Source of the DNA: an uncultured Pelagibacteraceae bacterium
GTDB taxonomy: Bacteria > Pseudomonadota > Alphaproteobacteria > Pelagibacterales > Pelagibacteraceae
Direction: 5' to 3'
Assembly (NCBI GenBank): GCA_902607625.1
Contig: CACLKR010000010.1
Location: 1-32,045 of the forward strand
Length of the DNA: 32,045 nt
Part shown: one piece after another, positions 23,247 to 30,656 of the stretch
How the letters are laid out: each line of letters starts with the position of its first letter
Position numbering within the stretch: position 1 is the first letter of the stretch
Program-made: the position numbers and the translations under genes
Notes under the pieces: generated by a model
The model's database searches: none
What the model was told of the DNA's origin: nothing
The model's input: only the letters and a program-made list of their open reading frames with translations

Positions 23247-23869
23247 AACATCCTCCGGCTTACTGGCATAAAGCAAAAAAAGTATTATCAAAAAGAGATC
23301 CAGTATTAAGAAAAATAATTAAAAAATATAACAAGGGTTTTTTAACTACCAAAAATAAACCTTTTTTTTCTTTATGCCGTACAATTGTAGGTCAACAAAT
23401 AAGTACTAAAGCTGCAGATTCAATTTGGTTAAAATTTGAGGCAAAGTGTAAAAAGAAAATAAATCCAAAAACTGTATTAAATCTGCCTACTCGTACTTTA
23501 AAAAGTTCAGGTCTATCACGTCAAAAAGTTTCTTACTTAAAAAATGTTGCAAAAAATTTTAACAATAAATCTTTCGACATTAAAAAACTTAAAAAAATGA
23601 ATGATAACGATGCCATAAATTATATAACACGTCTAAAAGGTTTAGGGGTATGGAGTGCTCAAATGTTTTTAATGTTTAATTTAAATAGATCAGATATGTA
23701 TCCTACGGGCGATATTGGATTTCTAAGAGCTTTATCATTAAATTATAAAACATCATATCCACCAAGTAAAAGATTTTTAGATAAAATTTCTAATCTTCAT
23801 TTAGGTTATAGAACTGTTTTAACTTGGTATATGTGGAGATCAATTGATCCAACCGATGTTGAATATTAA
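23243..23869 (+). CDS. DNA-3-methyladenine glycosylase (AlkA-like HhH-GPD)
   Basis: 208-residue base-excision repair glycosylase. FFSLCRTIVGQQISTKAADSI is the typical start of the HhH-GPD domain. The helix-hairpin-helix is LKGLGVWSAQMF (131-142), followed by YPTGDIGFLRAL with catalytic Asp157. GYRTVLTWYMWRS is the usual C-terminal helix. Its length matches the compact AlkA forms without the N-terminal beta domain. It would excise 3-methyladenine and related alkylated bases. Translation is probably coupled to the permease gene through the ATGA overlap. The stop codon shares bases with the stop of the convergent uraD (TTAA at 23866-23869). Confidence 0.88.
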   Translation: MKHPPAYWHKAKKVLSKRDPVLRKIIKKYNKGFLTTKNKPFFSLCRTIVGQQISTKAADSIWLKFEAKCKKKINPKTVLNLPTRTLKSSGLSRQKVSYLKNVAKNFNNKSFDIKKLKKMNDNDAINYITRLKGLGVWSAQMFLMFNLNRSDMYPTGDIGFLRALSLNYKTSYPPSKRFLDKISNLHLGYRTVLTWYMWRSIDPTDVEY

Positions 23870-24372
23870 AGACCTTTATTATTTAGTTCTTTTAAGCGTA
23901 AACTAGCAATTTGCTTTACTTGTTTAGTAGCTTGATCAAATTCTATTGTTGGATCAAAAGAAATTCTTTTTTTAAAGTTATCTAAAATTTCATTTTTATT
24001 TTTTCCTTTTACAGCTAGAATAAAAGGGAAACCAAACTTTTTCTTATACTGTTCATTTAAATGCTTAAATTCATCGAACTCTTCTTCGGTACAATGATTT
24101 AATCCTGCGCTAGCTTGTTCTTTCAAAGAGTCCGGAGTTAATGAGCTTATTTTTGTTTTATTTGCTAGATCTGGATGAGCATTAAGAATTTTTAATTGTT
24201 TTTCCTTTGTAGCGGTTTCAAAAATACTAAGTATTTTTAAAGACAATTCTTCAAAGCTATTGAAAGGTTTTTGATTGTATAGTTCTTCTGCAATCCATCT
24301 TGCATTTTCGAATATATTAGCGAAAACTTTGATAAATTCACTTTGAGACAATTTATTAATTTTATTGATCAT
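23866..24372 (-). CDS. uraD: OHCU decarboxylase
   Basis: Decarboxylates 2-oxo-4-hydroxy-4-carboxy-5-ureidoimidazoline to S-allantoin, the last step of urate breakdown. The 168-residue, all-helical protein has ILNAHPDLA with catalytic His66, an EQASAGLNHCTEEEFDEF segment and KFGFPFILAVKGKNKNEIL, all signatures of the family. It is transcribed away from uraH, with only 25 bases between the two start codons. The two genes encode consecutive steps, so a shared bidirectional promoter region is likely. Its 3' end overlaps the convergent glycosylase gene by four bases. Nothing appears to be missing. Confidence 0.93.
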   Translation of the reverse strand: MINKINKLSQSEFIKVFANIFENARWIAEELYNQKPFNSFEELSLKILSIFETATKEKQLKILNAHPDLANKTKISSLTPDSLKEQASAGLNHCTEEEFDEFKHLNEQYKKKFGFPFILAVKGKNKNEILDNFKKRISFDPTIEFDQATKQVKQIASLRLKELNNKGL

Positions 24373-28949: not shown

Positions 28950-29789
28950 ATGGAATTATTACCTTATACTTTTAAATGGATTGAAGTTTTATTACGCTGG
29001 AGTCACGTTTTATTTGCCATCCTGTGGGTTGGAAATAGTTTTTTATTTAATTATTTAGATAACAAGTTAGAAAAGAATACAACTAGCAAAGAAGTGGATG
29101 CAGAAGGAATCTTGCAACACAGCGGTTGGTTTTATCGCGTGGAAAGACTTAATACTGTACCTGAAAAATTTTCTAAAAATTTAATTATATTTAAATGGCA
29201 AAGCTATCTAACGTTTATTACTGGAATGTTATTATTAATAATTATTTATTACGCTAATTCAAAAATTTTAATGATCGATAAGAGAGTAAATGAAAATATT
29301 ACACCTTTAATGGGAATAGGAATTTCAATTTTCTCTATAGTAGGATCTTGGTTAATTTACGATCTTATCTGTAAGTCTAAGTTGATAAATAAGAAAATAA
29401 TTTTCCCAGTAGTGTTGCTTATTATTGGAGCTGTTATTTCATTTTCTTTGACAAAAATTTTTGGATCAAGATTCGCATTTTTGTCTGTTGGTGTTATTTT
29501 AGGTTGTATAATGTTTTTTAATGTATTTTTCGTTATAATACCTAACGGTAAAAACATTACTTCTTCAGCTTTAAACAAAGAAAAGTTTGATTTAAATTTA
29601 TCAATTAGCGCTAAAACGCGTAGCGTACATAATAATGTCATCACATTTTTGGTTCTTTTTGTTATGTTGAGTGGACATGCTTCCTTTATTTGGATTAACC
29701 AGTACAATTGGATTATATTAACGTTCTTAGCTATTACTTTAGGTCTTCTTCGTCACTATTTTAACTTAAGAGCAAAAAAAAAGATCTAA
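28950..29789 (+). CDS. puuD: PuuD-type membrane urate oxidase domain, without cytochrome c domain
   Basis: 279-residue membrane protein that matches the N-terminal membrane domain of PuuD, the urate hydroxylase making 5-hydroxyisourate. Recognisable parts are LLRWSHVLFAILWVGNSF, LQHSGWFY, FKWQSYLTFITGMLLL, FNVFFVIIPNGKNI and RSVHNNVITFLVLFVMLSGH. About eight hydrophobic helices are visible. Histidines at 19, 57, 227 and 243 could be functional or haem ligands. Full-length PuuD proteins are about 400 residues with a C-terminal cytochrome c (CXXCH) domain. Here the protein ends after the last helix and no CXXCH is encoded in the remaining downstream sequence. Position next to xdhB/guaD and in the same module as uraH and uraD supports urate as substrate. 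The 3' end overlaps the convergent DUF1330 gene by four bases. Confidence 0.85.
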   Translation: MELLPYTFKWIEVLLRWSHVLFAILWVGNSFLFNYLDNKLEKNTTSKEVDAEGILQHSGWFYRVERLNTVPEKFSKNLIIFKWQSYLTFITGMLLLIIIYYANSKILMIDKRVNENITPLMGIGISIFSIVGSWLIYDLICKSKLINKKIIFPVVLLIIGAVISFSLTKIFGSRFAFLSVGVILGCIMFFNVFFVIIPNGKNITSSALNKEKFDLNLSISAKTRSVHNNVITFLVLFVMLSGHASFIWINQYNWIILTFLAITLGLLRHYFNLRAKKKI

Positions 29790-30076
29790 ACACCTTCTAC
29801 GATTTGTAAATTTCTGTCGGTTGAACTTTTAGCTAAACTCCAAGCTTCCTGATATTCCTTAGAATTATAGCATTTTTCTGCCTCTTCATAGGTTGGAAAT
29901 TCCCAAATTACAGTTCTTGGAAAATCATTACCTTCAAGACATTTATATTTTCCTCCTCTAACAAGTGGATTTCCACCATAACTTTTTATCGTCTTGGTTG
30001 CTTTTGCAGCATAGTTTCCAAGATTATCTTTACTTTCTATTTTTTTATAAGTTGCTAACCAATATCCTTTTGGCAT
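29786..30076 (-). CDS. DUF1330 family protein
   Basis: 96-residue ferredoxin-like fold (dimeric alpha-beta barrel) protein starting MPKGYWLATYK, with YGGNPLVRGGKYKCLEGND, PRTVIWEFPTYEEAEKCYNS and a terminal IVEGV. These are the recurring features of DUF1330, a family without a settled biochemical function. It has one of the few good Shine-Dalgarno sites in the window, AGGAG at 30084-30088 on this strand, seven bases before the ATG. It lies opposite puuD and the phosphoribosyltransferase gene within the purine region. A role in purine use is possible by location only. The cytoplasm is its likely site, as no signal is present. Confidence 0.85.
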   Translation of the reverse strand: MPKGYWLATYKKIESKDNLGNYAAKATKTIKSYGGNPLVRGGKYKCLEGNDFPRTVIWEFPTYEEAEKCYNSKEYQEAWSLAKSSTDRNLQIVEGV

Positions 30077-30128: not shown

Positions 30129-30656
30129 ATGTCAGAAAAATTAATTGTTAGTTGGGAAGAATACACAAATACTGTAGAAAAACTAGCAGTTCAAATTGAT
30201 AACAGCGGTTATAAGCCCACTATTTTAATTGGAATTATGAGAGGAGCAGGACTTTGTATCGATCTTCTTTCGCGAATATGGAAAATGAAAACTGGATATA
30301 TTTCAGTTCAAAGCTATTCGGGAAAAGGGGTAGAAGACACACAGGGATCTATAATGTTTTCAAGACAAATAAGTTCTATTGCGGAAAGTAATGATTTTGA
30401 AAAAATATTACTAATAGATGATTTAAGTGATACAGGTTTAACACTTAATAAAAGCATAGAATGGTTAAAAAATCACGATCCAATTAAAGATTTTATCAAA
30501 GAGATTAAAACAGGTTGTTTATGGAGAAAAAAGAAATCAACCTTTACTCCAGACTTTTGTGCTGTAAATTTACCCAATTCGCCTTGGATCGTGCAACCTT
30601 TTGAAAAACATGAAGAAATTAGAATTGAAGACCTGAAGAAGAAGTATTCCAAATAA
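30129..30656 (+). CDS. Purine-type phosphoribosyltransferase (Gpt-like)
   Basis: 175 residues, type I phosphoribosyltransferase fold. The PRPP-binding loop is ILLIDDLSDTGLTLNKS (two acidic residues followed by the D-x-x-D-T-G pattern). The N-terminus MSEKLIVSWEEY and the C-terminal NLPNSPWIVQPFEKHEE resemble E. coli Gpt (MSEKYIVTW, DTWIEQPW), which salvages xanthine and guanine to nucleotides. It sits between the purine catabolic operon and a purine permease, which fits base salvage. The exact base cannot be fixed: xanthine, guanine or hypoxanthine are all possible. It is convergent with the permease gene across a shared hairpin terminator. Confidence 0.72.
   Translation: MSEKLIVSWEEYTNTVEKLAVQIDNSGYKPTILIGIMRGAGLCIDLLSRIWKMKTGYISVQSYSGKGVEDTQGSIMFSRQISSIAESNDFEKILLIDDLSDTGLTLNKSIEWLKNHDPIKDFIKEIKTGCLWRKKKSTFTPDFCAVNLPNSPWIVQPFEKHEEIRIEDLKKKYSK

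Follow-up and report, generated by a model that had tools for sequence, protein, structure and literature searches.

The 2015 study that defined the urate oxidase PuuD described its fused cytochrome c as invariant in full-length members and probably essential (PMC4562309). SAR11 purine use is under active study (PMC11698098). Neither a cytochrome-less PuuD nor the cluster cytochrome gene described below turned up in the open-licence literature, as far as its texts were accessible.

The window, as we call the whole stretch of DNA analysed here (32,045 nt from an uncultured Pelagibacteraceae bacterium), is contig C10 of a genome of 927,452 bases that is 76.5% complete. Its purine cluster contains the following genes:

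23866..24372, minus strand: OHCU decarboxylase (uraD); TIGR03164, 187.7 bits
24398..24745, plus strand: 5-hydroxyisourate hydrolase (hiuH), the enzyme after urate oxidase; TIGR02962, 124.8 bits
24745..26184, plus strand: xanthine dehydrogenase small (FeS/FAD) subunit; TIGR02963, 583.6 bits
26186..28495, plus strand: xanthine dehydrogenase molybdopterin subunit; TIGR02965, 1114.9 bits
28485..28949, plus strand: TadA-like deaminase, directly 5′ of puuD; PF00383; "purine deaminase 1" in the main text of PMC11698098
28950..29789, plus strand: puuD, 279 aa, without cytochrome domain and without helix VIII; PF06181, alignment, AlphaFold2 model
29786..30076, minus strand: DUF1330 gene, convergent with puuD; PF07045 (1.2e-29) and placement
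30129..30656, plus strand: purine phosphoribosyltransferase-like gene; position kept in relatives, name from the gene list in the main text of PMC11698098
30704..31990, minus strand: NCS2-type purine permease; PF00860

The cluster is intact: the expected companions of PuuD, HIU hydrolase (TIGR02962) and OHCU decarboxylase (TIGR03164), which process what urate oxidation yields, are both present. The DUF1330 gene overlaps the puuD stop by 4 bases.

The puuD product matches positions 2-274 of the 295 in the PF06181 Urate_ox_N profile (1.1e-77, 261.8 bits) and comprises the full-length Urate_ox_N (DUF989) membrane domain except for its last part, which corresponds to helix VIII. The protein stops at residue 279 and has no C-terminal cytochrome c. 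An earlier note on this DNA had read the 279-aa frame at 28950-29789 (plus strand) as PuuD with its membrane part only, and the profile match bears this out. Across the whole window, neither strand has a stop-to-stop ORF of at least 40 aa with CXXCH; hence none lies between the puuD stop and the window end, as the note had also said. A frameshift or assembly error as the cause of the short gene is ruled out by a stop position that is the same across the genus, and SAR11 puuD genes end at a clean stop, with none of the frameshifted cytochrome domains that had been raised as a possible objection.

The loss is not the peculiarity of a single odd protein, as first pictured, but clade-wide. CXXCH is found in 0 of the 46 SAR11 PuuD loci checked and in 0 of 22 named Pelagibacteraceae loci (L091-L112, which overlap the sampled genomes, so that the two sets are not to be added). 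Within the window's genus 21 of 23 genomes match Urate_ox_N, with full-domain ORFs of 279-283 aa apart from contig-end pieces. Across 397 Pelagibacterales genomes the full-domain ORFs span 279-308 aa, the exceptions being contig-cut pieces and one 451-aa frame (L178, 3793-5145; G224:C3) in which puuD runs in frame into the next, phosphoribosyltransferase-like gene, through either a genuine fusion or a deletion in the assembly.

Outside SAR11, CXXCH is present in all 30 fetched class-level PuuD loci and in all 58 named PuuD loci of other taxa, in agreement with the earlier description of full-length PuuD as ending in a cytochrome; the possibility that most homologues lack the domain was not realised among these non-SAR11 PuuDs. 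A class draw of 385 genomes gave 88 ORFs outside SAR11 of at least 395 aa, with G544 (308 aa), G707 (cut by the contig end) and G648 (divergent, 842 aa) as exceptions, and a phylum draw of 369 genomes gave 104 of 105 non-window ORFs of at least 399 aa, the remaining one lying at a contig end; these open-frame lengths include the stretch before the start codon, and length alone is not proof of a cytochrome domain, CXXCH having been checked in the fetched loci only. The nearest cytochrome-bearing relatives are three single-cell alphaproteobacteria (L113-L115) at 43-46% identity. With the domain present in these and other taxa and absent from the SAR11 loci checked, the loss is most simply derived within SAR11.

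Three related observations stand apart. The 308-aa PuuD of G544 (L187, contig C33), an alphaproteobacterium outside SAR11, has no cytochrome, keeps helix VIII and lies beside a hiuH-like gene; apparently it represents a second, independent cytochrome loss. The 842-aa ORF of G648 (L188, contig C1) has a divergent Urate_ox_N match (121.7 bits), a CXXCH and an extended, unexplained N-terminal region. A short protein of ~200 aa that matches only positions ~170-240 of the Urate_ox_N profile is nearly universal in Pelagibacterales (e.g. L018-L030).

Pelagibacter-type PuuDs (~301-303 aa) end in the hydrophobic helix VIII, seen as a hydropathy peak at residues 283-301 in the L094 protein; the shorter PuuD of the window's genus ends ahead of this helix. 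The AlphaFold2 model of the window protein (mean pLDDT 90.4) has seven long helices in place of the eight transmembrane helices of PuuD, the eighth being kept in relatives. This absence, evident from both alignment and model, escaped the earlier note, whose observation was right and is part of something larger than it thought: a clade-wide domain loss plus the loss of helix VIII. A convergent DUF1330 gene stands at the puuD 3′ end in all 14 window-genus genomes whose PuuD locus is complete, as well as in the named loci L091 and L092, against 0 of 74 other SAR11 loci (the loci overlap in part). The helix VIII lost in the window's genus probably brought the C-terminus out to the periplasm and would have become dispensable once the cytochrome was gone; the arrival of DUF1330 is the event that would have removed it.

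In many Pelagibacter-type loci DUF1330 is located at the opposite cluster edge, near an HhH-GPD gene. The contig-cut G410 PuuD, from a different genus, has the same ending as those of the window's genus. Within that genus, G021 (L004/L185, contig C36) carries a long-branch PuuD of 55% identity with His at residue 179, no helix VIII and a convergent DUF1330; it is possibly a transferred gene or a contaminant. Foldseek with the PuuD model returned no match at E 0.001 or better, the best VIA-align Z (6.8) is within the range of helical bundles without relatives, and a PDB sequence search with PuuD gave nothing convincing.

Retained invariant histidines and a low dN/dS make the window PuuD a probably active enzyme. 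In the 74-PuuD alignment His 19, 57, 227 and 243 along with R16, D37, R224, N228 and N229, all invariant in cytochrome-bearing PuuDs, are retained in the window protein. The window gene gives dN 0.029 and dS 0.351 against the partial puuD of G003, and the G018-G019 pair gives 0.042 and 0.547; low dN/dS refers to such closer pairs, dS being near saturation in wider ones. A lost ligand His at residue 179, hinted at earlier, is ruled out: the 30 cytochrome-bearing PuuDs have His (22) or Gln (8) there, so that the position is variable and not a fixed ligand. It is Ser in 30 of 30 Pelagibacter-type proteins and Gln, Ser or His (10, 3 and 1) in the window's genus. The change from SNHY to SGHA that the note had pointed out is correct, but not as a ligand loss, His243 being kept in all 74 aligned proteins. 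Altogether 27 of 79 conserved columns are changed in the window's genus. Clustering of the SAR11 changes on the periplasmic (cytochrome-docking) face is not supported (p 0.61), with 35 columns kept and 20 changed on the cytoplasmic side and 17 kept and 7 changed on the periplasmic side (the genus set without G021).

These residues and rates bear on whether PuuD still oxidises urate at all. A decaying or repurposed membrane remnant could explain why a domain thought essential in the 2015 study (PMC4562309) is gone together with one helix, but we regard it as very unlikely in view of the low dN/dS in closer pairs, the kept histidines and the position of PuuD between xanthine dehydrogenase and two product-using enzymes that would otherwise have no substrate source in the cluster. 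The window protein would instead be a working urate oxidase of a SAR11 (Pelagibacteraceae) purine-catabolism cluster that has lost its covalent electron acceptor.

With PuuD reduced to its membrane part, the electrons must exit by another route, a point of the earlier note that we accept. From the acceptors it listed (a separate cytochrome c, quinone, or O2 directly), only the separate cytochrome c finds genomic support, in relatives and not in the window's own genome. Fifteen of the 22 named Pelagibacteraceae loci have, at the purine cluster's far edge, a small gene (~103-111 aa) whose product begins with a hydrophobic stretch and contains a CXXCH. It adjoins uraD or lies on the far side of the genes for allantoicase, ureidoglycolate lyase and a polysaccharide-deacetylase-type protein (PuuE in the SAR11 operon of PMC11698098). 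At the corresponding edge in the window, beside OHCU decarboxylase, gene maps and the CXXCH scan show no such gene.

The best family for the cluster cytochrome is NCBIfam SorU (83.5, 89.8 and 83.7 bits, under the cut-off of 100). Its best PDB match is 4pw9/4pwa (E 1.5e-28), which we take to be SorU (of SorT/SorU, a sulfite dehydrogenase and its cytochrome c). It is not encoded beside a SorT-type sulfite dehydrogenase, the SorT-linked class being separate. An origin as a severed PuuD domain is ruled out by profile scores: the PuuD-domain profile gives the cluster cytochrome a mean of 3.9 bits (maximum 7.3) versus 117 for true PuuD domains, and the SorT-linked and apr-linked profiles give it means of 87 and 116 bits, two of the cluster sequences being short fragments that lower the minima.

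A profile search of the 397 genomes found the cluster cytochrome in 55 of 74 PuuD-positive genomes and in 1 of 323 other SAR11 genomes, where the 74 are full-domain rows that include one partial (G261) and do not count the contig-cut G410, and where G329 and G408 are assigned to the apr-linked class, not the cluster class. The single genome without PuuD is G326, whose contig ends inside the purine cluster. In 51 of the 55 the cytochrome is on the same contig as PuuD. Any SorU-type match (E 1e-12 or better) is found in 68 of 74 PuuD-positive genomes versus 29 of 323 others. The cluster cytochrome tracks the urate block, not the allantoin block, because it is absent from five genomes with allantoicase and without a full PuuD row (G046, G132, G307, G323, G416), and in five others (G209, G215, G357, G372, G413) it is near puuD with allantoicase on another contig. 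Its co-occurrence with PuuD is partly linkage, cluster genes being gained and lost together.

We infer, with a probability of roughly 0.55, that the PuuD of SAR11 is a two-component system delivering electrons to a soluble SorU-type cytochrome c. The membrane domain would still oxidise urate and release the electrons at the periplasmic face, where a free c-type cytochrome would take the place of the fused one; this carrier would, in most PuuD-positive SAR11, be the small secreted SorU-type cytochrome from the edge of the same cluster. For these genomes replacement by a soluble cytochrome is a supported hypothesis, which we do not extend to the window's own genome. Counting against the two-component reading, the sister classes of SorU type come with sulfite-oxidation partners of their own.

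The follow-up that the earlier note had suggested, a search for a separate cytochrome, succeeded in those 55 relatives, but not in the window's genome, where (at 76.5% completeness) the profile search gave no SorU-type match and a PF13442 search no cytochrome c ORF. What this genome has is one ordinary cytochrome c ORF (PF00034) with an N-terminal hydrophobic stretch, cut by the contig end. SorU-type matches occur in 19 of 23 window-genus genomes, in genes outside the purine cluster. G270 and G278, with readable clusters, gave no SorU-type match, nor did G544 (98% complete), whose cytochrome-less PuuD is unrelated. Such genomes are what one would expect if cytochrome-less PuuD used the cell's general respiratory cytochrome c, anchored in the membrane, as its acceptor; the fused domain would then have been a mere, dispensable relay and the cluster cytochrome, where present, an optional extra. 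The window's genome has the PF00034 ORF and no SorU type, and the other three likewise gave no SorU-type match. This reading leaves unexplained both the enrichment of SorU-type matches (68 of 74 against 29 of 323) and the complementary distribution described below, and we consider it rather unlikely.

A route that bypasses cytochrome c, with either membrane quinones or O2 itself taking up the electrons, would equally suit a genome where no SorU-type partner was found. It would also suit the seven-helix form, whose C-terminus would be cytoplasmic if the published N-out topology holds. We judge it improbable, since we identified no residue change that would mark a quinone site and the cytochrome linkage in most relatives would go unexplained. 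As for an H2O2 route, no catalase rise was seen for canonical PuuD in 2015 (PMC4562309), which counts against H2O2 in the canonical enzyme.

Returning to the soluble carrier, sister classes of the SorU type are found at sulfite loci. Ten sampled SorT-linked loci share a gene set in which the two large neighbours that were scanned proved SorT-like (PF00174) and another encodes a molybdopterin synthesis protein, and the apr-linked loci share an APS-reductase and TauE set (aprBA-tauE; one locus scanned). Among 73 PuuD-positive genomes with an inspected cluster edge, a sulfite-locus sister type is present in 15 of 18 without the cluster cytochrome and in 1 of 55 with it (Fisher 8.5e-12). Thirteen PuuD-positive genomes with a contig-cut or uninspected edge were left out (G181, G206, G325, G004, G007, G008, G009, G010, G012, G016, G017, G019, G021); of the ten belonging to the window's genus, eight have a SorU-type match, G017 has none and G021 has a weak match with a stop, which was not counted. 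As an example, G344 and G144 have near-identical PuuDs; G144 has the cluster cytochrome, and G344 lacks it and has a match in the SorT-linked score class. The complementary distribution is suggestive, because the PuuD tree allows only five well-supported independent pairs (on average 4.2 for and 0.2 against, median p 0.125).

In genomes without the cluster cytochrome, including most of the window's genus, a SorU type from the sulfite locus (SorT or aprBA-tauE) may serve PuuD. More tentatively, and as a possibility that we place below even odds, soluble SorU-type cytochromes could be interchangeable, with urate and sulfite oxidation feeding one small periplasmic carrier pool and with the enzyme of the window's genus cut back further, to seven helices.

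As a separate observation, in another SAR11 genome a small cytochrome c ORF (L256; G039:C1, 6151-6468) lies exactly between rpoB, identified by Pfam, and a 1395-aa ORF placed as rpoC by position only; six other genomes have matches in the same low score class.

An entire clade of bacteria that abound in the ocean runs a PuuD cluster without the cytochrome held invariant in 2015 (PMC4562309). The destination of urate's electrons is now directly testable, with a natural enzyme minus its relay and a named candidate partner. The label "cytochrome c urate oxidase" would misstate the mechanism for SAR11 puuD genes.

Compared with the PuuD of Agrobacterium fabrum (Atu2314; PMC4562309), the window protein shares the Urate_ox_N domain, the invariant histidines and a cluster with hiuH and uraD, but has neither the C-terminal cytochrome c nor helix VIII. 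The short four-helix DUF989 proteins (PMC4562309), with SAR11 examples of ~200 aa, also have part of the domain and no cytochrome; the window PuuD, unlike them, is full-length in this domain and lies within a purine cluster. With the SAR11 purine operon (Braakman 2025, PMC11698098) the window has in common the NCS2 permease, PPRT, PuuD, the TadA deaminase, the XDH subunits, hiuH and uraD; no cytochrome c is among the genes listed for that operon, nor is the term "cytochrome" used in the main text. The cluster-edge cytochrome of the relatives is nearest to SorU, which differs in that the partner would be a membrane urate oxidase and not SorT, and in a score of 83.5-89.8 bits against a cut-off of 100. 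The analogy that we propose with SorT/SorU is that of a soluble cytochrome serving a separate oxidoreductase.
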